A stretch of DNA of 13,349 bases from contig UQFU01000046.1 of the NCBI GenBank assembly GCA_900540425.1, forward strand, positions 1 to 13,349, in the 5' to 3' direction. This DNA is from an uncultured Alphaproteobacteria bacterium (GTDB lineage Bacteria > Pseudomonadota > Alphaproteobacteria > RF32 > CAG-239). Under the pieces are notes generated by a model that was given only the letters and a program-made list of their open reading frames with translations, was not told the origin of the DNA and ran no database searches. The stretch's first letter is position 1; every line of letters starts with the position of its first letter. Shown piece by piece: positions 14 to 13,238 of this stretch. The translations under genes were made by a program, and so were the position numbers.

Positions 14-35
14 ACTCCGGCTCGGAGGCCGGAGT
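14..35. repeat. Inverted repeat at left edge
   Basis: ACTCCGGC (14-21) and GCCGGAGT (28-35) are exact reverse complements around a 6-base loop, giving an 8-bp GC-rich stem. The right arm runs straight into the tandem repeat units that follow, so this looks like the head of a dispersed palindromic repeat. I infer a non-coding intergenic repeat. Its left end may lie outside the window. Confidence 0.6.
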
Positions 36-113
36 GACAGATAAAAAACAGGCCGGAGTGACAGATAAAAAACAGGCCGGAGTGACAGATAAAAAAATAG
101 GCCGGAGTGACAG
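27..113. repeat. 24-bp direct tandem repeat, about 3.5 copies
   Basis: Two identical 24-bp units (27-50 and 51-74) each read GGCCGGAGTGACAG followed by an A-rich tail. A third unit (75-99) is one base longer with a slightly changed tail, and a partial fourth (100-113) ends after GACAG. An open reading frame across these units is highly repetitive and basic (Thr-Asp-Lys-Lys type repeats) and is best read as spurious. Degenerate pieces of the same motif (ATGACCGGGAT, GAGATGACAGAG) continue to about 255, suggesting an old array. Confidence 0.75.
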
Positions 114-718: not shown

Positions 719-746
719 TTGAAAGTTTTCTTTTTTTGATTAAACT
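719..746 (+). promoter_or_regulatory. Candidate sigma-70 promoter of first cold-shock gene
   Basis: TTGAAA (719-724) and TAAACT (741-746) are separated by 16 bases. The -35 matches consensus at 5 of 6 positions and the -10 at 4 of 6. The predicted start, about 752-753, falls on the first bases of a strong hairpin. AT-rich sequence makes chance matches likely. Confidence 0.3.
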
Positions 747-750
747 ATCA

Positions 751-796
751 GTTGTCAGGGCAAAAGCCTTGATAACCGAATAACCTTTCTGGAAGG
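751..796 (+). promoter_or_regulatory. Structured 5' leader of first cold-shock gene
   Basis: An 11-bp stem pairs 751-761 (GTTGTCAGGGC) with 766-776 (GCCTTGATAAC) around an AAAA loop, with two G-U pairs. It is followed by CCTT (784-787), which can pair with AAGG (793-796), part of the ribosome binding site of the gene starting at 806. The first hairpin has no T-run, so it is not a normal terminator. I infer a leader that protects the 5' end of the message, and possibly a weak translational control hairpin. Temperature dependence is plausible for a cold-shock gene but not shown. Confidence 0.45.
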
Positions 797-805
797 AAAT
801 ATAAA

Positions 806-1009
806 ATGTTTTTTGGAAATGTGAAATGGTATAATATGCAAAAGGGTTACGGGTTCATTATTCCTGATGACGCTTCTAAAGATATTTTTGTTCATGCTAC
901 CCAATTGGAAAAGATTGGTTTGAGATCTGTGGCAACCGGACAAAGAATAGCTTATGAACCGTATAATGACCGTGGCCGCATAGCTGCCGGTAATCTTAAA
1001 CTTTTATAA
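806..1009 (+). CDS. Cold-shock domain protein (CspA family), copy 1
   Basis: A 67-residue, single-domain cold-shock protein. Family members are cytoplasmic OB-fold proteins that bind single-stranded RNA or DNA and melt mRNA structure. The RNA-binding motifs are clear: KGYGFI (RNP1, residues 13-18) and DIFVH (RNP2, 26-30), together with the N-terminal VKWY strand. Length is normal for the family. ATG at 806 is preceded by GGAAGGA (791-797) at good spacing. A strong hairpin lies in the leader and an intrinsic terminator follows, so the gene is probably monocistronic. It shares about 39 of 67 residues with the second cold-shock gene at 2322, with no gaps, so the two are paralogues. The tail (DRGRIAAG) is shared by both. 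Role at low temperature is inferred; many such proteins are constitutive or stationary-phase. Confidence 0.93.
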   Translation: MFFGNVKWYNMQKGYGFIIPDDASKDIFVHATQLEKIGLRSVATGQRIAYEPYNDRGRIAAGNLKLL

Positions 1010-1033
1010 TTCTTAAAGCTATTTGGACTCATC

Positions 1034-1062
1034 AACAAGCCGCTTTTGCGGCTTGTTTGTTT
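1034..1062 (+). terminator. Intrinsic terminator after cold-shock copy 1
   Basis: AACAAGCCGC (1034-1043) pairs perfectly with GCGGCTTGTT (1048-1057) around a TTTT loop, giving a 10-bp GC-rich stem followed by a T-rich but interrupted tail. It lies 25 bases past the stop codon at 1009 and before the convergent gene ending at 1087. Confidence 0.8.
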
Positions 1063-1086
1063 ATATGAGGCGTTTGCGAAAAGGGG

Positions 1087-1782
1087 TTATTCTCCGGTTG
1101 TTTGCTCGAACTTATTGCAGATGTCGTATTCCATTGCATAATTGGTGCTGTTGTCGAGTTTTTGGTGTTCTTGTTCCCGGGCGAGGTTAAATTTCTCGAT
1201 GATCGGCATCAATTTAATGGCGTAGTAGCGTTGGAGCAGCGCCAGAGCTAGCCGGTCATCGGTTGGGGTGCTGATTTTTACGGAGCGGGCCTGGCGGATT
1301 ATTTTTTCGGCAGCGCTGCGGATAATTGGCAAAAAATATTGCATGGTTAAAATGTTTATTCGTTGGTGGGTTTGTTCGTGGCGGATAATCAGGGAAAAAC
1401 GGCAGCTGTCTACGGGATATTCTTTGGCGACATATATTGTGGGGTTGGAATAGCCGAAATAGACTTCGATTTCGTCGGGGATAATGCAGTAGTCGTTATC
1501 GGAAATTTTGATACCGTGGGCGGTATTTATACGGATTGATCCGAGGGTTGTTGCAGTTGCCAAGCCATCGATGAGAATGCCTTTTTCCGGGCGGCTGCTC
1601 ATGGCTTGGATTTGATGCTGGGGGGTAGATATGTCATGGACAAGCTGGCCGTAAGAGGTTTTGAAGATAATATGCGGGTTAGGGTTGAGAGCATCGCAGG
1701 AGACGGTGCCGATTTCTGCCGCGTGTGACGGCAACGAAAAAACGGCCAGAGCCGACAGCAGGAAAAATGCAAGTTTGGGCAT
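1087..1782 (-). CDS. Exported HExxH putative zinc metallopeptidase, copy 1
   Basis: 231 residues with a Sec signal peptide (residues 1 to about 21, hydrophobic core then SHAA), so periplasmic or secreted. Residues 135-139 are HEQTH, the HExxH zinc-protease signature, in a helix-like setting (IIRHEQTHQRIN). A second conserved segment near the C-terminus (REQEHQKLDxxT, about 202-213) could supply further metal or structural residues. Four cysteines (29, 99, 127, 222) are all conserved in the paralogue at 3818-4558, suggesting two disulfides. The layout of HExxH followed by a D-x-x-T segment recalls DUF922-type secreted proteases, but that link is from memory and tentative. AAGAGA lies about 9 bases before the ATG. 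The gene is divergent from the small exported protein gene at 1871 with an 88-base gap. Protease activity is inferred from the motif only. Confidence 0.75.
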   Translation of the reverse strand: MPKLAFFLLSALAVFSLPSHAAEIGTVSCDALNPNPHIIFKTSYGQLVHDISTPQHQIQAMSSRPEKGILIDGLATATTLGSIRINTAHGIKISDNDYCIIPDEIEVYFGYSNPTIYVAKEYPVDSCRFSLIIRHEQTHQRINILTMQYFLPIIRSAAEKIIRQARSVKISTPTDDRLALALLQRYYAIKLMPIIEKFNLAREQEHQKLDNSTNYAMEYDICNKFEQTTGE

Positions 1783-1870
1783 ATGTTTGTTCTCTTTTGA
1801 ATGACAATGACAGGATATTATTAAAATATTAAAATAATTTTACTAAAATATCTTTTCAGAGGGAATAAGA
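1783..1870. promoter_or_regulatory. Divergent promoter region of copy 1 pair
   Basis: An 88-base, strongly AT-rich gap separates two divergent start codons and must hold the promoters of both genes. The string GATATTATTAA (1814-1824) also occurs in the equivalent gap of copy 2 (4608-4618). AGAGGG (1858-1863) is the ribosome binding site of the rightward gene. I cannot place -35/-10 boxes with confidence. Confidence 0.5.
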
Positions 1871-2185
1871 ATGAAGATTTTATTAAGTTGCAGCATATTA
1901 TGGGCCGGTATTGCCGGGGCAGTATCGGCAGGAGCGCAGGAAGTGCAGTTTGATGCCGAACTGGCAGCACGTTATCAGGCGGAGGCAGAGGTGGAAGCCG
2001 AAGATCTGCTGCAACGGTTTCAGAGTTCGGTTAAGCCGCGTTATCAAACCGCTTATGAAGATTATCTTTATGATTTGCAGGTTATCGCCCAAACCGGGAG
2101 GGCGCCTGACAATGAAGCTTTGTATGATGATTTGCGCGTGATGAACAATAATGAAACATTTATTTATGCTGATAGTCAAGACTAA
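1871..2185 (+). CDS. Small exported protein, partner of HExxH protein, copy 1
   Basis: 104 residues, no family recognised. The N-terminus is a signal peptide (hydrophobic about 3-19, small residues about 17-22), so the mature protein of roughly 80 residues should be periplasmic or secreted. The mature part is acidic and mostly helical in character, with no cysteine. Residues 61-104 align without gaps to residues 88-131 of the small protein at 4676-5089, with 22 of 44 positions identical, including an AY-x2-YL-x-DL-x-VIA core and an IY-x-DS-x-D end. ATG at 1871 has AGAGGG seven bases upstream. It is transcribed away from the HExxH gene, and that arrangement is repeated in copy 2, so a functional link (substrate, inhibitor, chaperone or co-factor) is inferred but unproven. 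Confidence 0.75.
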   Translation: MKILLSCSILWAGIAGAVSAGAQEVQFDAELAARYQAEAEVEAEDLLQRFQSSVKPRYQTAYEDYLYDLQVIAQTGRAPDNEALYDDLRVMNNNETFIYADSQD

Positions 2186-2228
2186 ATTTTAGTGTAATCT
2201 CATATACCAGCTATACAAGTATTTATTG

Positions 2229-2257
2229 TTGACCATGATTAGTTGTGGCGATAGTGT
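2229..2257 (+). promoter_or_regulatory. Candidate promoter of second cold-shock gene
   Basis: TTGACC (2229-2234) and TAGTGT (2252-2257) are 17 bases apart. The -35 is good and the -10 weak. The predicted start near 2264 again coincides with the base of a hairpin (2262-2280), as in the first cold-shock gene. Confidence 0.35.
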
Positions 2258-2261
2258 TGCT

Positions 2262-2280
2262 TTGTGCCGAAAAGGTACAA
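2262..2280 (+). promoter_or_regulatory. Leader hairpin of second cold-shock gene
   Basis: TTGTGCC (2262-2268) pairs with GGTACAA (2274-2280) around a GAAAA loop (7 bp, one G-U). It lies about 41 bases before the start codon at 2322. It is weaker than the copy 1 leader hairpin and differs in sequence, but holds the same place relative to the predicted transcript start. Confidence 0.35.
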
Positions 2281-2321
2281 GTATTTGTTACGTACTGAAT
2301 TTTTTTATAGGAGATTGCTTG

Positions 2322-2525
2322 ATGAAGCAAGGTACAGTTAAGTGGTACGACAGTAAAAAAGGTTATGGATTTATTTCTCCCGATGGTGAAGCAAAGGACG
2401 TTTTTGTTCATGTAAGCCAGCTGGAAAAGGCGGGCTTACCCGGGCTTGACAGTGCTCAGAGAGTGGGGTTTGAAATTTATGATGACCGCGGGAGAATTGC
2501 GGCCGGACAAATTAAAATTCTGTAA
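2322..2525 (+). CDS. Cold-shock domain protein (CspA family), copy 2
   Basis: A 67-residue cold-shock domain protein, paralogue of the one at 806 (about 58% identical). RNP1 is KGYGFI (residues 13-18) and RNP2 is DVFVH (26-30); the VKWY strand is present. The open frame extends upstream to 2226, but ATG at 2322 is chosen because it gives the normal family length, starts at the usual MxxGxVKWY position and follows TAGGAG (2308-2313). It should act as a cytoplasmic single-stranded nucleic acid-binding protein or RNA chaperone. It has its own candidate promoter, a leader hairpin and a strong terminator, so it is probably monocistronic, although no terminator separates it from the upstream small exported protein gene. 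Confidence 0.93.
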   Translation: MKQGTVKWYDSKKGYGFISPDGEAKDVFVHVSQLEKAGLPGLDSAQRVGFEIYDDRGRIAAGQIKIL

Positions 2526-2547
2526 TCCGATTTTAATATAACTCCTG

Positions 2548-2584
2548 AAGTAAGCTGTAGTCTGAAGCTGCAGCTTACTTTTTT
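2548..2584 (+). terminator. Intrinsic terminator after cold-shock copy 2
   Basis: AAGTAAGCTGTAG (2548-2560) pairs with CTGCAGCTTACTT (2568-2580), a 13-bp stem with one G-U pair and a 7-base loop, followed by a run of six T (2579-2584). It lies 23 bases past the stop codon at 2525. Confidence 0.88.
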
Positions 2585-2640
2585 GGTATATAAAAAATAA
2601 TTGATAAATAAGCCGGGGCGCTTATATTTATATTCAGCAC

Positions 2641-2650
2641 GGAGGCGAGG
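2641..2650 (+). promoter_or_regulatory. Ribosome binding site that sets the MFS start
   Basis: GGAGGCGAGG ends one base before ATG 2652; the GGAGG core is 6 bases away. This favours 2652 over the upstream TTG at 2601 and over the in-frame ATG at 2661. Confidence 0.65.
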
Positions 2651-2651
2651 T

Positions 2652-3821
2652 ATGATTTCTATGCAAAACAGCGAACCGATTTTTACATACAATTTTTTTC
2701 TGATTACATTTATTAACTTTATGGTGTTTTTTTGTTTTCAGATGGTTTTTCCGATATTGCCGCTTTATGTTCAGAAGCTTGGCGGCAGCGATGCCGTGGT
2801 GGGGATGGTTTTGGGGATTTTTACATTTTCTACGGTTTTGGCGCGTCCGCTGACCGGATATTTGTTGGATCGCCATCGTAAGAAATTTATACTAGTAGGC
2901 AGCTTGAGCGTTTTTGCCATGGTTATTTTCTCATACGGGTTGACGGCCAGTATAGGTGCTCTTATGGTCGTGCGGATTATTCACGGTTTTGGATGGGGAT
3001 TTGCCGGGACGACGACTTCGACGATTGCCAGCGAAATGATTCCCAAAGCCCGTTTTGGGGAAGGAATGGGGTATTTTTCTTTGGCAAACTCTTTGGCAAT
3101 GGCGCTGGCGCCGGCTTCCGGCATTTATATTGAAATGCGTTACGGCGATGCTTCGGTTTTTTTTACCGCTGCCGTTTTTGGGGTTTTGGCATTTGCTGCC
3201 GCTTTTTTTCTGAAATGCAAGTCTCCGGAGGTTGTTCGACCGGCAGTTAACGGTGGGTTGTATGAAAAAGAGGCAATTATTCCCGGAGTTATGTTGTTTT
3301 GGGTGGCAATGGCTTATGGCGGCGTGATTAGTTTTCTGCCGTTGTTTGCCGCAGAGAAGGGAATTCAAAATATTGGCGGTTTTTTTGTCGTTTATGCCCT
3401 TTCGATTTTGTTGACAAGGCCGTTGATGGGAAAAATGGTTGACCGTTGGGGATTTGATTATACCGTTATTCCGGGATTTGTATGTTTGTTGATTGCGCTG
3501 GTTTTGTTGGCGGATTTGCGCAGCAGCCGGATGCTGATGGTGGTGGCCGTGATTTACGGTACGGGGTTTGGGGCAATGATTACCAGTTTGCAGACAATGG
3601 CGGTCAGGGACGTTCCGCGCAACCGAATTGGTGCTGCCAATGCGACACTTTTTACCGGAAATGATTTGGGAATCGGTTTAGGAGTTATGCTTTTGGGTAT
3701 GGTTGCCGAAGCATGGGGATATCGCGATATGTATTTATTTACGGCATTTCCGTTGTTGGCTGCTTTGATTTTTTATGTCCTTTTTGTGCGGGGGCATAAG
3801 TTGAAGCTGAAAGAAGCTTAA
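2652..3821 (+). CDS. Major facilitator superfamily (MFS) transporter
   Basis: 389 residues, about 12 hydrophobic segments, so an inner-membrane secondary transporter. The MFS signature loop between helices 2 and 3 is present (GYLLDRHRKK, residues 69-78), with a degenerate second copy in the C-terminal half (GKMVDRWG, 260-267). R108 in helix 4 (VVRIIHGFGWG) matches motif B, and ALAPASG (151-157) in helix 5 resembles motif C of drug/proton antiporters, which suggests export. The overall look is of YfcJ/YwoG-type efflux or uncharacterised exporters; the substrate cannot be told. The stop codon at 3819-3821 overlaps the stop of the convergent gene at 3818, leaving no room for a terminator. It interrupts copy 2 of the duplicated block and has no counterpart in copy 1. 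Confidence 0.9.
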   Translation: MISMQNSEPIFTYNFFLITFINFMVFFCFQMVFPILPLYVQKLGGSDAVVGMVLGIFTFSTVLARPLTGYLLDRHRKKFILVGSLSVFAMVIFSYGLTASIGALMVVRIIHGFGWGFAGTTTSTIASEMIPKARFGEGMGYFSLANSLAMALAPASGIYIEMRYGDASVFFTAAVFGVLAFAAAFFLKCKSPEVVRPAVNGGLYEKEAIIPGVMLFWVAMAYGGVISFLPLFAAEKGIQNIGGFFVVYALSILLTRPLMGKMVDRWGFDYTVIPGFVCLLIALVLLADLRSSRMLMVVAVIYGTGFGAMITSLQTMAVRDVPRNRIGAANATLFTGNDLGIGLGVMLLGMVAEAWGYRDMYLFTAFPLLAALIFYVLFVRGHKLKLKEA

Positions 3822-4558
3822 TACGGGCCGTTTGCGGTACGGAGCGCTTTTTCCCGCCGGCGGTTATATGACTGACACAGTTTTTCATCAATTTTATAGC
3901 CGGTTACTTCGTCAAACTTGCGATGTTCCTGTTCTCTGATTTGGTCAAAAGCGTCCAAAATGGGTTTGACGGCGGCAATGTATTCGTCTTGAAGTTTTTT
4001 AATGTCCTGATTAACGTTTCCCTTGCCCTTGATGACAATCGGATTAATGTTTTGTGTTGCCTGAATGATGGCATCTTTCATCAGCGGCAGCAGGTATTGC
4101 AGCGTATAGATGTTGATTTGCTGGTGAACCTGCTGATGGCGCAGCATGACCGAGAATTCGCAGGGTTTGGAACGGAATTCCTTGGCAATGTAGATAAGAG
4201 GATCTTTATAGCCGATGAAAACTTCTATTTCTTCGGGGATAAGGCAGACATTTTCTTCGGAGATATATTCGGTTATGGCTGAGCTAAGCTTGACATAACC
4301 GTCCGATTGGATTGTGTGATGGCTGGAATCCAGGAAAAGTTTTTCCGGAACGGTTTGGGACTTCTTTATTTCCCGGAGCTGTTTTTCTTCTGTAGAAACA
4401 TCATGAACCAACTGTCCGTAGGCCGTTTTGAATACGATGTGCAACGGAACTTTCATTGCTTCGCAAGAGAAGAAACGTTCTGCTTCGAAGGCAGCCCGGG
4501 CGTTGCCGGAAAACAGCAAAAAACTCAAGGCCAGGAGTGTAAACAATTTTTCTTTCAT
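3818..4558 (-). CDS. Exported paralogue of HExxH protein with HQxxH motif, copy 2
   Basis: 246 residues with a signal peptide (1 to about 22, ending NARA), so exported. It is a clear paralogue of the protein at 1087-1782: the segment around the motif (residues 104-163) matches at 32 of 60 positions without gaps, and all four cysteines (32, 105, 133, 228) are kept. The metal motif reads HQQVH (141-145): both histidines are present but the catalytic Glu of HExxH is Gln (codon CAG where copy 1 has GAA). The C-terminal REQEH-x-K-x-D-x2-T segment (about 208-219) is intact. I infer a zinc-binding but catalytically inactive or altered protein. The ribosome binding site is weak. It is divergent from the small exported protein gene at 4676 (117-base gap) and its stop overlaps that of the convergent MFS gene. 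Confidence 0.75.
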   Translation of the reverse strand: MKEKLFTLLALSFLLFSGNARAAFEAERFFSCEAMKVPLHIVFKTAYGQLVHDVSTEEKQLREIKKSQTVPEKLFLDSSHHTIQSDGYVKLSSAITEYISEENVCLIPEEIEVFIGYKDPLIYIAKEFRSKPCEFSVMLRHQQVHQQINIYTLQYLLPLMKDAIIQATQNINPIVIKGKGNVNQDIKKLQDEYIAAVKPILDAFDQIREQEHRKFDEVTGYKIDEKLCQSYNRRREKALRTANGPY

Positions 4559-4675
4559 CGGGTTTTCTTTAGTTTTATTAAAAGAATATATTTTATAATA
4601 TAATACAGATATTATTAATTTGTTAAAAATATTTGATTATATTTGTCTTATCATAATAAAAATGCAGGTGTAAAA
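4559..4675. promoter_or_regulatory. Divergent promoter region of copy 2 pair
   Basis: An extremely AT-rich 117-base gap between divergent start codons. It contains overlapping TATAAT boxes on the plus strand (4594-4599 and 4599-4604) and GATATTATTAA (4608-4618), an 11-base string also found in the copy 1 gap. Exact -35 elements are unclear. Confidence 0.45.
4666..4670 (+). promoter_or_regulatory. Ribosome binding site for GTG start
   Basis: AGGTG lies five bases before GTG 4676. This favours the GTG over the upstream in-frame TTG at 4643, which would place a dozen polar residues ahead of the signal peptide. Confidence 0.5.
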
Positions 4676-5089
4676 GTGAAAAGAAATGTATTTATTCTGA
4701 CAGCGGGCGCTGCGTTTGGGATTTTGGCCTTGGTTTTCCGTGCCGAAGCCGTGACGGATGATATTGTTTATGAGATTGAGGTTGATTTGCCCCAGAAGCA
4801 GGTGGTGAAGACAGAAAGACAGCTGATTGAGGAACAAGAGAAAAAGCGTATGGATAATGCTCGCAAAGCCGGGGAAGCGGCGGCCGAGATGATGAAACAA
4901 AATTATAAGATTCTGGATACGCCGAATTTTCCGGGAGCGTATTATTATTATCTGGAAGATTTGAAAGTGATTGCTGAAAAGGGGCTGGCACCGGAAAGGC
5001 TGAATTTGTTTCGGGATTTGGAATTGATGAATTCCAAAGACGTTTACATTTATTATGACAGCAACGATGATTACAGTTTGCGGCACTAA
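4676..5089 (+). CDS. Small exported protein, partner of HExxH paralogue, copy 2
   Basis: 137 residues from the GTG start; no family recognised. A signal peptide covers residues 1 to about 25 (KR, hydrophobic core, then RAEA). The mature protein has a charged, coiled-coil-like helix (about 40-75, rich in Glu, Lys and Gln) and then the conserved C-terminal module (88-131) shared with the small protein at 1871-2185. The N-terminal helix is longer than in copy 1. There is no cysteine in the mature protein. It ends in a Tyr/Asp-rich segment (YIYYDSNDDY). It sits divergent to the HQxxH gene as copy 1 sits to the HExxH gene. Role unknown; a partner or ligand of the HExxH-family protein is inferred from conserved gene order. 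Confidence 0.75.
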   Translation: MKRNVFILTAGAAFGILALVFRAEAVTDDIVYEIEVDLPQKQVVKTERQLIEEQEKKRMDNARKAGEAAAEMMKQNYKILDTPNFPGAYYYYLEDLKVIAEKGLAPERLNLFRDLELMNSKDVYIYYDSNDDYSLRH

Positions 5090-6827: not shown

Positions 6828-8309
6828 TTACATTTTTTCCTTAAGGTCACTTCCCTGAGCCGTGTAGGTTTCAACAGCTTTGGCCGATTTTTTCGGCAAC
6901 GCCACGCAGCCGGGGCCCGCTACGCATCCGCCTTCGCAGCACATCACCTCAATCATGTTGAAGGGGCAGCCGTCGGGGTTGGTACAAACTGCCCCGGAGG
7001 CCGCTTTGGAGCCGTAACGTTTGAGAAGTTTGACGGTTTCTTTGGTCAGGCCGTCAACTTTTAACGGCTGATAGTTCACTTTACCTTCGATCAGGCTGGC
7101 AACGGCGCCGGCTACTCCGCCGGAAACAGAGAAGCCGCGTCCCTGAGCGCAGGAAACTTCGGTGAAGCCGATCGGTTCGCATTCCGCCACGTTAATCTGG
7201 GCGGCATTGAGAATAGCGCCGATTTCTTCAAAGGTGATGACATAATCAACATTGGGGTCGTTTTCGGCTTCAACCCGTTTGGCCAGGCAAGGGCCGATGA
7301 ATACGGTTTTGCAATCCGGCTGTTCTTTTTTGACCAATTCCGCAGTATAATACATCGGTGTTTTGGTATGGGAAACGTAAGGTTGAATTTCCGGAATATG
7401 AATTTCAGCGGCTTTGAAGTAGGCCGGACAGCAGGAAGTTGTCATCAGTTGTTCGCCTTTTTCGGCTTTTTCGATGAACTCGGCGGCTTCTTTCATAGTG
7501 GTAATGTCGGCACCAACGGCGACTTCAATAACGTGGCTGAAACCGATTTTGTTCAGAGCCCCGACCAGATTGTTAATACTGCCGGCAAATTGGCCGAGAA
7601 TGGCCGGTGCCAGCATGGCGACAACTTTTTGTCCCGGGGTGTTGATTTCGCGCAAGACGTCAACCATCTGCGAGGTTTCGACAATTACACCAAAAGGACA
7701 GGAGTTGAGACATTTGCCGCAGGAAATGCATTTGGAATGGTCAATGTGTTCGCGTCCGTCCTCGCCTTTGGTAATGGCTCCGACCGGGCAGGCGTCTTCG
7801 CAGGGCAAGGGGACTTTGATAATGGCGTTGTAGGGACAAACGTCGGCACAACGGCCGCATTTGACGCATTTGGCCTGGTCAATGACAGCCCGGTCGGCAA
7901 CTTCAATTGCCTGTTTGGGGCAGTTGAGCATGCAGGGGCGGGCAAGACAGGCGCGGCAGTTGTCGCTGACCAGATATCTTTGGCTCATGCAGGCGGCGCA
8001 AGATGCTTTGATAACGGAGAGGACGCTCGGGGCTGCAGTTGTCCGGTCAAGGGCTTTTTGTCCGTAGCCGTTCAGCGAGATGTCGGTTCCGTGTTCGGTA
8101 TCGGGATCAAAACCCATTGCCGCGATGGCGGCATATTTAATATAGGTGCGGTCGGCGTCAAGGCTTCCCCGCAAGGGTTGCGAGCCGTCGGGACGGATGA
8201 TTTCGGGAATGCGGTCTGCGTTGGCAAAGCGGTCTTCCAAGAAGCTTTTGGCAACTTGAAGCAAAATTTCCGTACGCAAAAAAGAGGCATTATTTTTAGG
8301 TGTCAACAT
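6828..8309 (-). CDS. Monomeric [FeFe] hydrogenase, group B-like
   Basis: 493 residues. The three H-cluster motifs are present: TSCCPAY (291-297), GPCLAKRVE (339-347) and EVMCCEGGC (454-462), with the cysteine ligands and the proton-relay Cys in place. The N-terminal half is rich in [4Fe-4S] ligands: CAAC (104-107), C118/C121/C126/C130, C148-x2-C-x2-C-x3-C158, C170/C174 and C194-x2-C-x2-C-x3-C204. This Cys-rich N-terminus and the variant L2 (GPC rather than MPC) and L3 motifs fit group B monomeric hydrogenases better than the classic group A. The enzyme family reversibly reduces protons with electrons from ferredoxin; here hydrogen evolution during fermentation is inferred. It is cytoplasmic, with no signal peptide. 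The maturation genes hydE, hydF and hydG, needed to build the H-cluster, are not in this window. The gene is divergent from the sensor kinase at 8512. Subgroup assignment is from motif memory. Confidence 0.9.
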   Translation of the reverse strand: MLTPKNNASFLRTEILLQVAKSFLEDRFANADRIPEIIRPDGSQPLRGSLDADRTYIKYAAIAAMGFDPDTEHGTDISLNGYGQKALDRTTAAPSVLSVIKASCAACMSQRYLVSDNCRACLARPCMLNCPKQAIEVADRAVIDQAKCVKCGRCADVCPYNAIIKVPLPCEDACPVGAITKGEDGREHIDHSKCISCGKCLNSCPFGVIVETSQMVDVLREINTPGQKVVAMLAPAILGQFAGSINNLVGALNKIGFSHVIEVAVGADITTMKEAAEFIEKAEKGEQLMTTSCCPAYFKAAEIHIPEIQPYVSHTKTPMYYTAELVKKEQPDCKTVFIGPCLAKRVEAENDPNVDYVITFEEIGAILNAAQINVAECEPIGFTEVSCAQGRGFSVSGGVAGAVASLIEGKVNYQPLKVDGLTKETVKLLKRYGSKAASGAVCTNPDGCPFNMIEVMCCEGGCVAGPGCVALPKKSAKAVETYTAQGSDLKEKM

Positions 8310-8459: not shown

Positions 8460-8494
8460 ATCAGGAGTTACAATATAAACAAGGAATTATTTGT

Positions 8495-8503
8495 GGAAGG
8501 AAG
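8495..8503 (+). promoter_or_regulatory. Ribosome binding site for TTG start of kinase
   Basis: GGAAGGAAG lies 8 bases before TTG 8512. This is why 8512 is preferred over TTG 8491, which has a weaker AAGGA five bases upstream. The choice changes the protein by only seven residues. Confidence 0.45.
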
Positions 8504-8511
8504 CCGCAGAA

Positions 8512-10602
8512 TTGAGAAAAGTCATAATTGTACTGATGGCGGCGGCGGTGGCCGGTTTGGCCGCGGCCTCGCTGATGTTTAACGGATCCGAAGCTGAGGA
8601 TGCCGCTTTCTCCGAGGCATTTACCGAGCCTTTGCACTTGAATTTTTCGGCCAGCGAGCAGGTATGGCTGAAAGACCACACCCGCCTGAAAGTCGGCGTT
8701 ATTCGCGATATGCCCCCTTATGAGGAATATAATGCCGCGCTGCGGCGGCCGGAAGGTATTGCTGCCGGTTATTGGGAAGTTATTGCCGGAAGCCTGAATA
8801 TGGATTTGAATCCGGTTCCGGTTTCAAACTGGGAAGAGGGGGCGGAATTGCTGCGACAGAAAAAGATTGCCGCCCTGAGCTTTATTTCCGGGGAAAGGGC
8901 CAGAAGCCTGCGTTTGGCAGCGAGCGAATCCTATATCGCGTCGTCGCTGGGGATTTTTACCAATGATTATGGGGCTTTTATCAATAATCTGGACGATGTT
9001 CTGCCTCAGCTGATTGCGATAGACCGGATTACGGCCGGACATCGAATGATTGCCGGCGATTTACGGCATGATTATAAGATTTATCCGACGGCGGAGGCGG
9101 CCATTGCAGCGGTTAATTCCGGCAAGGTTCGGTTTTATGTCGGAGATATTCTGCGAACCAAATATATGATTGAGAAATATAGGCTCAAAAATATGCGTTA
9201 TATTGCGCCGGTTGTCGGTTCTTCTTATGGTTTTTCGTGGGCGGCGGAACCGGAGAACCGGATGTTCATCCGGCTGGTCAATAAGGTTTTGGAGCAAATT
9301 TCCGCCGAACAGGGATTGTATATCCGTTACAAGTGGACGACGGAAAACGAAAGGGGCGGGAGTTTTTGGTCGCATCGTTACGCCCGCTATTTTTTGTGGC
9401 TGTTTTTGGGGTTTGCCTTGGCTTTGGCCGGGGTTGTTTTCCGTAGCCGGACTTTGCGCAAGCGGGTGTTGCAGCTCAGCCAGTCGCAAAAGATGGAATC
9501 TCTCGGCCGTTTGGCCGGCGGGGTGGCGCATGATTTTAACAATATGCTGGCCGGGATACAGGGTGCTGCGGAGTTTATCCGCATGAAGATGACACCGGGT
9601 GAGCAGAAGAAAATCGGCAAATATGTGGATATTATTATCAAGGCCTGTCGCCGCGCTTCGCATCTGACCTCGCAGCTGTTGGTCTTTTCGCGCGAGAAGG
9701 AACGTCGTTTTGAACCGCTTAATTTTAATGAGTTGATTCAGGACAGCATTTTGCTGCTGGAGCACGGGGTATCGAAAAAAACCGAAATTATTTCCCGGCT
9801 GCGGGCGAAAGACTGTTGTGTCAAGGCTAATCGCGATTTGATTCAGAATATGGTTTTGAATCTGGGGTTTAATGCCCGCGATGCAATGCCGTCCGGCGGC
9901 AAGCTGCTGATTGCGACCCGCGATGCGGAGATTGCTCCCGAAGAAGTGCATAATTTTTTGGTGAAAGTCCGTCCGGGGAGATACCTGGAATTGACTGTCA
10001 AAGACAAAGGCAGCGGGATTGCACCGGAAAATCTGAGCAAGATTTTTGAACCTTTTTATACGACCAAAGCCGTTGGCAAAGGGACCGGTCTGGGGTTGGC
10101 GGCGGTTTATGGGATTGTGGTTGAACACCAGGGGACAATCAAGGTTGAAAGCTCTTCCAAAGGGACGACTTTCAAAATTTATTTTCCGCTTTCGGCCGCC
10201 GACGTCTGTATTGAGAAGGAGCCGGTGGTGCCGATGCCGCTGAAGGCTAAGATCATGGCGGTAGATGACGAAAAGATTTTGTCGGAACTGCTGAAAGATA
10301 TTTTGGAAACGCTCGGATGCGAAGTCGTTTCTTTCAATAATCCTTTGGAAGCGGCTGATTATTATGCCGGGCATCCTGATTTTGACGTGGTGATGCTGGA
10401 TGTGCTGATGCCTCATTTGAGCGGAGTGGAGCTGTATTATCGGTTGCAAAAAAGCAATCCCGGCCTTAAGGTGATTTTTATGAGCGGCTACAGCAAAGAT
10501 ACGGAAGTGGAGAAGATTGTGGCCGGAAATTCCCGGACGGCATTTATCAAAAAGCCGTATAACGTGGCCGAACTCGGAGAGAAGCTGCGCGGGCTGTTAT
10601 AA
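8512..10602 (+). CDS. Hybrid sensor histidine kinase with solute-binding-type sensor
   Basis: 696 residues from TTG 8512. Domains in order: a membrane anchor or signal (about 4-23); a periplasmic domain (about 45-280) of the bacterial solute-binding family 3 type, opening with the WLKDHxRLKVGV pattern seen in BvgS/EvgS-like sensors; a transmembrane helix (about 293-311); a dimerisation/phosphoacceptor domain with the H-box GGVAHDFNN (His340); an ATPase domain with N-box (Asn450, Asn454), G1 DKGSGI (498-503), F-box FEPFYTTK (512-519) and G2 GKGTGLGL (522-529); and a receiver domain (about 580-696) with Asp585/Asp586, phosphoacceptor Asp630, Ser658 and the Lys680-Lys681-Pro682 site. All catalytic residues are present, so it should be an active inner-membrane hybrid kinase sensing a small periplasmic ligand. 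No response regulator with an output domain is nearby. It is divergent from the hydrogenase and followed by two degenerate GGDEF/EAL genes. Confidence 0.9.
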   Translation: MRKVIIVLMAAAVAGLAAASLMFNGSEAEDAAFSEAFTEPLHLNFSASEQVWLKDHTRLKVGVIRDMPPYEEYNAALRRPEGIAAGYWEVIAGSLNMDLNPVPVSNWEEGAELLRQKKIAALSFISGERARSLRLAASESYIASSLGIFTNDYGAFINNLDDVLPQLIAIDRITAGHRMIAGDLRHDYKIYPTAEAAIAAVNSGKVRFYVGDILRTKYMIEKYRLKNMRYIAPVVGSSYGFSWAAEPENRMFIRLVNKVLEQISAEQGLYIRYKWTTENERGGSFWSHRYARYFLWLFLGFALALAGVVFRSRTLRKRVLQLSQSQKMESLGRLAGGVAHDFNNMLAGIQGAAEFIRMKMTPGEQKKIGKYVDIIIKACRRASHLTSQLLVFSREKERRFEPLNFNELIQDSILLLEHGVSKKTEIISRLRAKDCCVKANRDLIQNMVLNLGFNARDAMPSGGKLLIATRDAEIAPEEVHNFLVKVRPGRYLELTVKDKGSGIAPENLSKIFEPFYTTKAVGKGTGLGLAAVYGIVVEHQGTIKVESSSKGTTFKIYFPLSAADVCIEKEPVVPMPLKAKIMAVDDEKILSELLKDILETLGCEVVSFNNPLEAADYYAGHPDFDVVMLDVLMPHLSGVELYYRLQKSNPGLKVIFMSGYSKDTEVEKIVAGNSRTAFIKKPYNVAELGEKLRGLL

Positions 10603-10680: not shown

Positions 10681-11961
10681 ATGGCAAAATCAGCAAATTC
10701 AGGCGAAAAATATCTTTTGGATGCACTAGACCGAGTGGCTCGGAATCCGGTGGATTATTCGGTGCTGTATGTTAATATCTCCAAGTTGAAACCCAAAAAC
10801 CGTCATCCGGAATTTGTGAAGATTTTTGCCCGGATGTTTGACAGTATCGTCGGCGTTATCCGAGGGCAGATGTTTGTGCTGAGCAACGGAGATTTTGCCA
10901 TTTTAGGGAAAAATATTACCGAAGACACGGTTGATGAAGCGGTAAAGAAAATCCGTCTCGGATTGTCTTCCGATCCGGTCGTTCACGGTAGAAGCACCAA
11001 AGATTTTGCGGAGCTGTATTATTTTCCCGAAGACTATACTTCGCTCTATGTCAAGATTCAAAATATGTACGAAGATGACAATTATGAGGTTCCGGAAAGT
11101 CCTGATGAGGGGAAGCGCCCGATACGCGCCGATGAGATTGATGATGTCATTGCCCAGCTTGATACGATTGATATTCCGGAGATTATCAAACGGCAGAGCG
11201 CTCTGCAGATTGTCGGGCCGGGAAAATTCCGGGTTGCGTTTCAGGAATTTTTTGTGGCGGTCAAGGATTTGAGCGCGCATTTGGACAAGAGCCTTGATTT
11301 GCTGGCCAGCCGCTGGCTGTTTCTTTATCTGACCCAGACGCTGGACAAGAAAACGCTGAATGCTTTTTTTAGTTCGGACATTGTGAACTGGCCCCGGCAG
11401 ATTAGCCTGAATCTTAACCTGTCTTCTGTTTTTTCGCATGAGTTTGTTAATCTGGCGAAAAACTTTTTGAAACCGGATCAGAAATTGATTGTGGAAGTGC
11501 AGCTGATGGATGTTTTTAATAATTTGCAGCTGTATTTTAAGGTTAAGGATATTTTGCATGCCGGCGGGCATAAGCTGCTGATCGATACGGTCAGCCCCTC
11601 GTCGCTGAAACTGTTGAACCTGAAGCGGCTTGATCCGGATATGATTAAGGTTTTTTGGGAACCGCTGCTCGAATATGATGCAAATAATGAAATGTTCAGG
11701 CAGGTGGTAGAAAACCTGGGGGCGGATAATGTTGTTTTGGCTAAGTGCGACAGCAATACCGCGCTTAAGTGGGGGCTGGAATATAAACTCAATACTTTTC
11801 AGGGGCCGATTATTGACAGTTTGGAAGTCACATTGCTGCAGAAACATTGTCCGGACGCCTCTCATTGTCCGGCGGCCGACTGCTTGCGTCGCAAGCGGCT
11901 GTTATGGGGGAATTTCCGCGATGAATGTACGCAGAAGGAAATTTTGGAGGAATTGCTGTAG
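10681..11961 (+). CDS. Degenerate GGDEF/EAL-like protein, paralogue 1
   Basis: 426 residues, cytoplasmic. The N-terminal part (about 25-125) has a GGDEF-like outline in which the signature is reduced to NGDF (69-72). The C-terminal part (about 205-380) has an EAL-like outline: strand ISLNLNLSS (241-249), VEVQL in place of ExL (271-275), LIDTVS in place of the DDFG loop (300-305), a kept DMIKVFW Lys strand (320-326) and the closing FQG (373-375). The metal- and substrate-binding acids are missing, so I infer neither cyclic di-GMP synthesis nor cleavage; a binding or scaffold role is possible. After the EAL-like part comes a Cys/His-rich tail (Cys390, 396, 401, 416) absent from the paralogue. 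AGAGA precedes ATG 10681. The stop at 11959-11961 is two bases before the next start, indicating one operon. The domain calls rest on pattern and are moderately sure. Confidence 0.75.
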   Translation: MAKSANSGEKYLLDALDRVARNPVDYSVLYVNISKLKPKNRHPEFVKIFARMFDSIVGVIRGQMFVLSNGDFAILGKNITEDTVDEAVKKIRLGLSSDPVVHGRSTKDFAELYYFPEDYTSLYVKIQNMYEDDNYEVPESPDEGKRPIRADEIDDVIAQLDTIDIPEIIKRQSALQIVGPGKFRVAFQEFFVAVKDLSAHLDKSLDLLASRWLFLYLTQTLDKKTLNAFFSSDIVNWPRQISLNLNLSSVFSHEFVNLAKNFLKPDQKLIVEVQLMDVFNNLQLYFKVKDILHAGGHKLLIDTVSPSSLKLLNLKRLDPDMIKVFWEPLLEYDANNEMFRQVVENLGADNVVLAKCDSNTALKWGLEYKLNTFQGPIIDSLEVTLLQKHCPDASHCPAADCLRRKRLLWGNFRDECTQKEILEELL

Positions 11962-11963
11962 CG

Positions 11964-13238
11964 ATGTTTCTATTTAACAAAAATGCCGATAAGCCGGTGG
12001 TTAAAAAAGATACGGTTATTTTTGATTATCTGCGGAAGATGGAAAAGAGCCTTGACGATTACAGAGCGCTTTATCTGGAAACCGGAAGGCTGGAAAACCG
12101 CAATATGCGCGCGGTGCAGCGCCAGTCGCTGATTGAGACTTTTGAAACGGTTATCAAGAAAAGCGGCGGAGAGCTTTTTGCCTTGCCGAATGATGATGTT
12201 GTCGTGTTTTTTAACCGCACGGCCCAGGAAGAAATTTTGACCTGTTTGGTTAAACTGCGTTTTATTTTGCATGACGATCCGCTTATTCGCAATAATCCCG
12301 ATTTGGAAAAATCAGGTTTTGCCCGTTTTTATGATTTGTCAAACGGGGCAGCTCGGTTTCGCGACATAATCCGCAAAGCAACGGAGAACGGCAGCGCCGA
12401 TACCAAACCGGAGGAACGTTCCGGACGGCCGTCCATGCTGGGACAGGGCGGAATATACGGCGGCGTGCGCAAGCTGCGAAGGCAGTTGACGCCGCAAATG
12501 CTCGGCAAACTGCAAAAGGTTTTGTCAATGGCCGATTTTTCGAGCCTGATCCGGCGGCAGTCGGTTTGTGCGGTTATCGGACGTTCTGCTCCCCAAATGT
12601 TGTTTGATGAGGTTTTTGTTTCGATTGCCGATTTGCGCGATACGCTTCTGCCCGATGTGGATTTGACGGCAAATCCCTGGTTGTTTCAGTATTTGACCGA
12701 AACGTTGGACAAGCGGGTTTTAGCCAGCGTGAGCAAGCACGACGACGGCTCTTTAATCAATAATTTCAGCATGAATCTGAATGTTTCGACGATCCTGTCA
12801 GATGAATTTTTGCAGTTTGACGAAGACATTAACGCTTCCATGCGGTCGACGATTGTTTTGGAATTGCAGCTGGCGGATATTTTCAGCGATATAAAAGCTT
12901 TTATTTTGGCAAAGACTTTTGCACAATATCGCGGCTATAAGGTTTGCATTGACGGAATTACCGTTGACAAGCTTAAATATATTGACCGTGAACAGCTGGG
13001 AGCCGATTTGATTAAAATCATCTGGCACCCGACGTTTATGGATGTTATTAATGAAGACAAGCATTTTACCGATTATGTCAATAAAGCCGAACGCGCCAAG
13101 ATGATTATCTGTCGGGTTGATGATCCTCAGGCGGTTGAAGTCGGCAATTCTCTGGGTATTAATCTTTATCAGGGGCGTTACATTCAGCGTTTATTGTCCG
13201 CCCAGCCGAGAAAAACTATTTTTACAATAAAAAAATAA
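11964..13238 (+). CDS. Degenerate GGDEF/EAL-like protein, paralogue 2
   Basis: 424 residues, cytoplasmic, paralogue of the gene just upstream. Shared landmarks include a PNDDVVVFF segment (75-83, matching SNGDFAIL), the WLFQYLTETLDKR block (239-251, matching WLFLYLTQTLDKK), MNLNVS (270-275), LELQL (299-303), CID (328-330), DLIKIIW (348-354) and YQG (402-404). Again the catalytic EAL and GGDEF acids are largely replaced. A Gly/Arg-rich linker (about 150-172) separates the halves. ATG 11964 is chosen: it is two bases past the previous stop, with GGAGG (11946-11950) upstream at a rather long 13 bases. An in-frame ATG at 11925 would overlap the previous gene by 37 bases. No terminator is visible before the window ends. 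The two products may form a heterodimer; this is inference. Confidence 0.75.
   Translation: MFLFNKNADKPVVKKDTVIFDYLRKMEKSLDDYRALYLETGRLENRNMRAVQRQSLIETFETVIKKSGGELFALPNDDVVVFFNRTAQEEILTCLVKLRFILHDDPLIRNNPDLEKSGFARFYDLSNGAARFRDIIRKATENGSADTKPEERSGRPSMLGQGGIYGGVRKLRRQLTPQMLGKLQKVLSMADFSSLIRRQSVCAVIGRSAPQMLFDEVFVSIADLRDTLLPDVDLTANPWLFQYLTETLDKRVLASVSKHDDGSLINNFSMNLNVSTILSDEFLQFDEDINASMRSTIVLELQLADIFSDIKAFILAKTFAQYRGYKVCIDGITVDKLKYIDREQLGADLIKIIWHPTFMDVINEDKHFTDYVNKAERAKMIICRVDDPQAVEVGNSLGINLYQGRYIQRLLSAQPRKTIFTIKK

Follow-up and report, generated by a model that had tools for sequence, protein, structure and literature searches.

When a bacterial chromosome carries the same small set of genes twice in a row, what exactly was duplicated, and what has become of the second copy? 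The question is raised by a 13,349-nucleotide stretch of DNA from an uncultured alphaproteobacterium (contig UQFU01000046.1, analyzed whole and called the window here), in which a cold-shock gene, a gene for an exported-looking protein of an HExxH type, and a divergently transcribed gene for a small exported-looking protein occur two times. An initial annotation read this as the duplication of a three-gene block. Our preferred reading, to which we assign a probability of about 0.5, differs in the unit and in the fate of the copy: an exported zincin-like metallopeptidase (MP) and its near-obligate small partner (SM) would have been duplicated together in tandem, and the second metallopeptidase, MP2, would persist as a conserved pseudoenzyme.

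The first pair consists of MP1 (231 residues; minus strand, 1087..1782) and SM1 (104 residues; plus strand, 1871..2185), both defined by their open reading frames (ORFs) and family alignments and both signal-like at the N-terminus by eye. MP1 contains the motif RHEQTHQRIN, the HEQTH part of which (residues 135-139; minus strand, 1366..1380) is read directly from the sequence and translation; its start is separated from that of SM1 by 88 bases (1783..1870), which, judging from the coordinates, may hold the promoters. The second pair repeats this layout: MP2 (246 residues; minus strand, 3818..4558), a paralog of MP1 by alignment in which HQQVH replaces HExxH, faces SM2 (137 residues; plus strand, 4676..5089; ORF and family alignment), which has a GTG start, a TTG at 4643 also being possible. 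The gap between them, likewise a putative promoter region by its position, spans 117 bases (4559..4675), or 84 if SM2 starts at 4643. Thus the initial annotation, which had counted an exported HExxH family twice, was right for copy 1 (HEQTH) and overlooked the loss of the motif Glu in copy 2 (HQQVH).

That the genes are paralogous, as had been proposed, is borne out by local alignment of each pair, with 1000 shuffles of one member as the control: scores are 395 for MP1/MP2 (76/203 identical, 37% over the aligned part; best shuffle 81), 127 for SM1/SM2 (27/65 identical, 42% over the aligned part; best shuffle 57), and 216 for the two cold-shock genes, csp1 and csp2 (38/64 identical, 59%; best shuffle 39). 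The estimate that about half of the residues are kept therefore suits the cold-shock proteins and is too high for MP and SM. The duplication is old, again in line with the initial annotation, because a DNA-level search for repeats found just two families, of 31-32 bases. A 32-base AT-rich stretch, 78% alike, recurs in both MP-SM gaps (1814-1845 and 4608-4639); it could be a relic of a copied promoter, or chance.

How regularly do MP and SM occur together? Searching genome contigs with the MP alignment initially gave 16 loci, in records titled uncultured Alphaproteobacteria or Proteobacteria (including Azospirillum sp. CAG:239), every one with a divergent SM. All but one of these 16 genomes carry a further MP on another contig, and this copy likewise has an SM diverging from it in all 15. 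The window probably belongs, judging from its closeness to two of the loci (L001 and L013), to the same order of uncultured Alphaproteobacteria as L001. Among 153 genomes of this order, MP is present in 139, with a single match in 115 of them and more than one in 24. At the same E-value SM is found in 102, the shortfall covering genomes with a larger, diverged partner and some SMs that need an iterated profile (e.g., those at L118, L122, and L133). When the 126 listed SM matches in these genomes were compared with the best 139 listed MP matches (lower matches, including 11 listed rows, being excluded), 123 were head-to-head with an MP match; two of the remaining three (G343 and G232) begin at a contig end, and the genome of the third (G306:C6) has two MP matches, just one of which is in the compared list. 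The expectation that the divergent pair stays together is thus supported. Across 112 loci, all 108 SM ORFs are head-to-head with MP. The profile recognizes no SM in nine loci, yet there, too, 13 of the 14 MP ORFs have a divergent ORF, larger than SM, opposite them. Taken as one profile, the C-termini of these 13 larger ORFs give an hhalign match to SM at a probability of 83.9% (single-pair E 7.7e-6); taken singly, 5/13 match the SM profile at E < 0.05. The conserved C-terminal part of SM, Y..YL.DL..I...G.....L..DL..MN, is common to SM and the larger partners of this divergent lineage; a low-confidence prediction makes SM helical.

The pairing appears to be characteristic of the order, because no recognized SM was found beside any of the 31 MP ORFs in 20 loci outside it. 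Those loci come from a class-wide draw, in which MP occurs in 67 of 385 genomes, five of the 67 belonging to the order by their handles (G001, G004, G013, G063, and G221). Outside the order, MPs are often tandem on one strand; homologs so arranged and lacking a recognized SM include those at L191, L193-L195, L197, and L199-L203. A separate lineage within the order (L123, L126, L128, L129, and L130) also has two tandem MPs; both retain HExxH, and opposite each lies a larger ORF that looks exported.

If the pair is so constant, does the cold-shock gene belong to the duplicated unit? In the window, csp1 (67 residues; plus strand, 806..1009) is convergent with MP1, and csp2 (plus strand, 2322..2525) lies between the pairs together with an MFS transporter gene (plus strand, 2652..3821; Pfam MFS_1, E 1.4e-55). 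Both cold-shock proteins contain a CSD domain above the cut-off of 27 bits (63.7 bits, E 1.5e-17, for csp1 and 69.6 bits, E 2.1e-19, for csp2), and the ORF coordinates put all six genes and the MFS gene where the initial annotation had them. L001 and L013 share the double pair with the window, and in L003 and L004 a second pair is placed and oriented in the same way with respect to a hydrogenase gene and csp1; the gene order hydrogenase - pair 2 - pair 1 - csp1 is common to all five loci, and L002 has one pair at the hydrogenase/csp1 site. What lies between the pairs varies. The csp2 and MFS genes are there in the window and L013; L001 has neither, and L003 and L004, each with two MP-SM pairs, also lack csp2 there. 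In these two loci the pairs are separated by an ORF that is flagellin-like by eye, and pair 2 adjoins one that is, again by eye, Fe-ADH-like. A second cold-shock gene in L003 is on the far side of csp1. Of the 112 loci, mostly covered for ~4 kb on each side, just 6 have a cold-shock gene close to MP. Because csp genes are so rarely near MP and csp2 is present in two of the five doubled loci, the unit of duplication is most probably the divergent MP-SM pair, with the cold-shock gene a local passenger at most. The duplication itself was thus correctly recognized; a third gene in its unit is not supported, although csp2 may have been copied along with the pair in the lineage of the window.

MP trees were built from 54 of 122 MP rows (a second tree has 27 rows), and an SM tree from the last 95 residues of 32 of 108 SM rows. 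The 54 MP rows divide at 100/100 into 23 extra copies (group A) and 31 order-wide copies (group B), and the SM tree has the same two groups, separated at 99/96; agreement between the trees had been named as a check. Within group A, both trees give the second copies the longest stem branches (1.8-2.4 changes per column for MP and 2.2-2.3 for SM), which fits MP and SM having shifted together.

Could a whole block have been copied after all? In that scenario a single duplication of csp, MP, and SM took place in the lineage of the window, csp2 and the MFS gene subsequently disappeared from L001, and the doubling in L003 and L004 was a separate event. It draws on the grouping of csp1 with csp2 of the window lineage (80/83 in a tree of 16 rows), on a weak clade of MP1 and MP2 of the same lineage (52/78), and on the placement of the second copies of L003 and L004 with the first copies of L002-L004 (87/99); the best MP tree favors two origins of the second pair. 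However, long branches are involved, the tree tool having warned that they meet in this part of the MP tree, and a single clade of second copies is not rejected for either MP (p value of the approximately unbiased test 0.276) or SM (0.247). Furthermore, the scenario requires the loss in L001 and two losses of the same Glu, and it would have to produce an identical gene order from the hydrogenase gene to csp1 at all five loci; we therefore hold it to be possible, yet doubtful.

What, then, has happened to the second copy? The Glu of HExxH is present in 117/117 MP ORFs of the order outside copy 2 (110 by motif table, 7 by reading) and in 31/31 outside the order. In the five copy-2 proteins, this position is Q (window, L001, and L013) or F (L003 and L004). 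By contrast, His135, His139, Asp210, Cys99, Cys127, and Cys222 (MP1 numbering) are retained in all five, and the first cysteine, Cys29, is present in the full copy-2 translations of the window, L001, and L013. Among the presumed catalytic residues, Glu is the sole loss in copy 2, though other columns changed too: of the 22 columns with at least 90% conservation, copy 2 of the window retains 16 (two of the six missing being trimming gaps) and that of L003 retains 17. Among the window, L001, and L013, the proportion of nonsynonymous differences (pN) is 0.18-0.24 for MP2 and 0.19-0.26 for MP1, with synonymous differences (pS) at 0.77-0.84 in both; for MP2 and SM2 jointly, pN is 0.18-0.25 vs pS 0.77-0.84. 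By this measure, the copy-2 genes are under constraint like that on copy 1. Loss of Glu, retention of the other site residues, and constraint together make the pattern of a kept pseudoenzyme; MP2 is most likely non-catalytic and conserved, and may have gained a non-catalytic role.

Pseudoenzymes of this sort have precedents. PMC3650047 reports that an HExxH motif may stay conserved after substitution and that the Glu is most often replaced by Gln; as in the zincin pseudoenzymes presented there and in PMC11266112, MP2 has the Glu replaced and the rest of the presumed site retained. MP2 differs in lying in tandem with an intact paralog, and each of the two has its own partner gene.

The argument presupposes that MP is an enzyme at all, and what sort of enzyme would it be? 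By the HExxH motif the MP1 family counts as zincin-like; the five copy-2 proteins, MP2 among them, lack this motif. HExxH and a distant conserved Asp are the presumed zinc ligands, accompanied by four conserved cysteines: Asp210 is found in every non-copy-2 row that has a residue at that column, and it is nearly invariant (at least 90%) outside the order. The structure model of MP1 is confident (predicted local distance difference test score 84.2, predicted template modeling score 0.73) and runs from strands to a long helix that carries the motif and on to two helices. Comparison of this model with PDB by Foldseek or VIA gave no match, although folds missed by Foldseek could not surface, and a search of PDB with the MP sequence gave nothing below E 0.31. 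None of MP1, MP2, SM1, and SM2 matches a Pfam or NCBIfam family above cut-off, and matched protein records are nameless or called "hypothetical protein."

The nearest candidate is DUF922 (PF06037), for which a zincin-like fold has been predicted (PMC3650047). By eye, MP shares with it HExxH and a downstream D-x-x-[TS]-x-[HY] stretch, and DUF922 is the commonest weak Pfam match among MP relatives, its order-level number being tied with that of one other family: weak hidden Markov model matches were obtained for two of the 25 order-level MPs, the best at E 2.8e-4, and for four of the 30 class-level MPs, the best at E 0.025. Yet the bit scores of two relatives, 13.9 and 15.1, fall short of the gathering cut-off of 27; MP1 and MP2 have no DUF922 match at E up to 1; MP has more conserved cysteines; and the distance from the second motif His to Asp, counted by eye, is ~71 residues in MP1, compared with ~34 in the L053 protein that belongs to DUF922. 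Membership, which the motif had prompted, was rejected on these sub-cut-off scores and because the profile-profile comparison is not significant (hhalign 3.6%, 11.8%, and 0.8%, with DUF922 profiles of 11 and 9 sequences). A search with one DUF922 query found no solved relative. MP may thus work like a DUF922-type zincin without being assigned to that family. Asp-zincins, in turn, are reported to have the motif HExxHxxGxxD (PMC3890501); MP resembles them in having HExxH and a candidate Asp ligand, which in MP is ~70 residues away rather than inside the motif. Among the 30 class-level MP ORFs, one matches a Sel1 repeat and one, probably the same, has matches such as NCBIfam MerG (E 3.1e-9); these are taken as repeats outside the MP part.

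Each of these points leaves room for other readings. MP might not be an enzyme, its HExxH residues being structural or binding a metal for storage or sensing, with a Glu that copy 2 shows to be dispensable. The missing fold match, the failure of MP1 and MP2 to join any family, and the five conserved proteins without Glu all speak for this, but the Glu is present in all of the MP ORFs outside copy 2, in the order and beyond it, and is absent solely from second copies in which both His and Asp are intact; we find this reading unlikely, if still worth keeping in mind. An enzyme-like protein adjoining a small near-obligate partner also recalls a secreted toxin and its immunity protein. This is very improbable: MP is carried almost throughout the order, mostly as a single match, its homologs outside the order have no partner, the genes are head-to-head instead of in one operon, the MP and SM trees show the same groups, and the recurring neighbors are housekeeping-like. 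By eye, these order-wide neighbors are HAD nucleotidase-like, DksA-like, Maf-like, and Rho-like, and they indicate no pathway. Scarcely more credible is the idea that MP and SM are adjacent by chance and that gene order merely changes slowly. Vertical inheritance would indeed hold neighbors together for a while, but the pair is kept at separate places within one genome, nearly every listed SM match is head-to-head with MP, and the adjacent MFS, csp2, flagellin-like, and Fe-ADH-like genes come and go.

The tandem-duplication and pseudoenzyme reading can then be laid out as a sequence of steps. MP would be an exported zincin-like metallopeptidase that uses HExxH and the distant Asp to bind zinc; SM would be a small exported protein dedicated to it, and would probably bind MP outside the cytoplasm, acting as an inhibitor, chaperone, or adaptor. 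The first pair is carried almost order-wide, and a second would have arisen by joint duplication of MP and SM, leaving two tandem pairs in the lineage of the window. MP2 would then have lost the general-base Glu while its presumed ligands, its cysteines, and purifying selection were retained, and would have become a non-catalytic, still metal- or substrate-binding paralog that works with SM2.

The remainder of the window shares part of its layout with the related loci. An iron-only hydrogenase large-subunit domain (minus strand, 6828-8309; Pfam E 4.2e-57) is on the pair-2 side, as it is in L001-L004 and L013, and is adjoined, there too, by a hybrid histidine kinase (plus strand, 8491-10602) with an N-terminal SBP_bac_3 solute-binding domain and a C-terminal receiver. 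Two neighboring proteins (plus strand, 10681-11961 and 11925-13238) look by eye like tandem paralogs; the second faintly resembles the CsrD model (E 0.003), against which the first has E 0.11. Near the start of the window (27-97), three repeats of the short stretch GGCCGGAGTGACAGATAAAAAA are visible by eye. An Rfam scan at the gathering threshold and a tRNA scan of the window gave no matches, and no relative of MP2 was found in the viral contigs searched.

What does this mean for the order? MP is near order-wide, MP1 and MP2 belong to no family above cut-off, and within the order the partner almost never occurs without MP; no description of the MP-SM pair was found in the open literature searched. 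In genomic terms, the association of the two genes is well-supported and the pseudoenzyme signature unexpected. A bolder and rather speculative extension is that the pair is a previously undescribed, order-wide envelope module, in which an Asp-liganded exported zincin is controlled by a helical head-to-head partner, and that in one lineage the tandem pseudoprotease pair regulates the active one. The five loci at which an intact copy lies beside a copy without Glu would offer a natural comparison for studying the function of a zincin-like protein after catalysis is lost.

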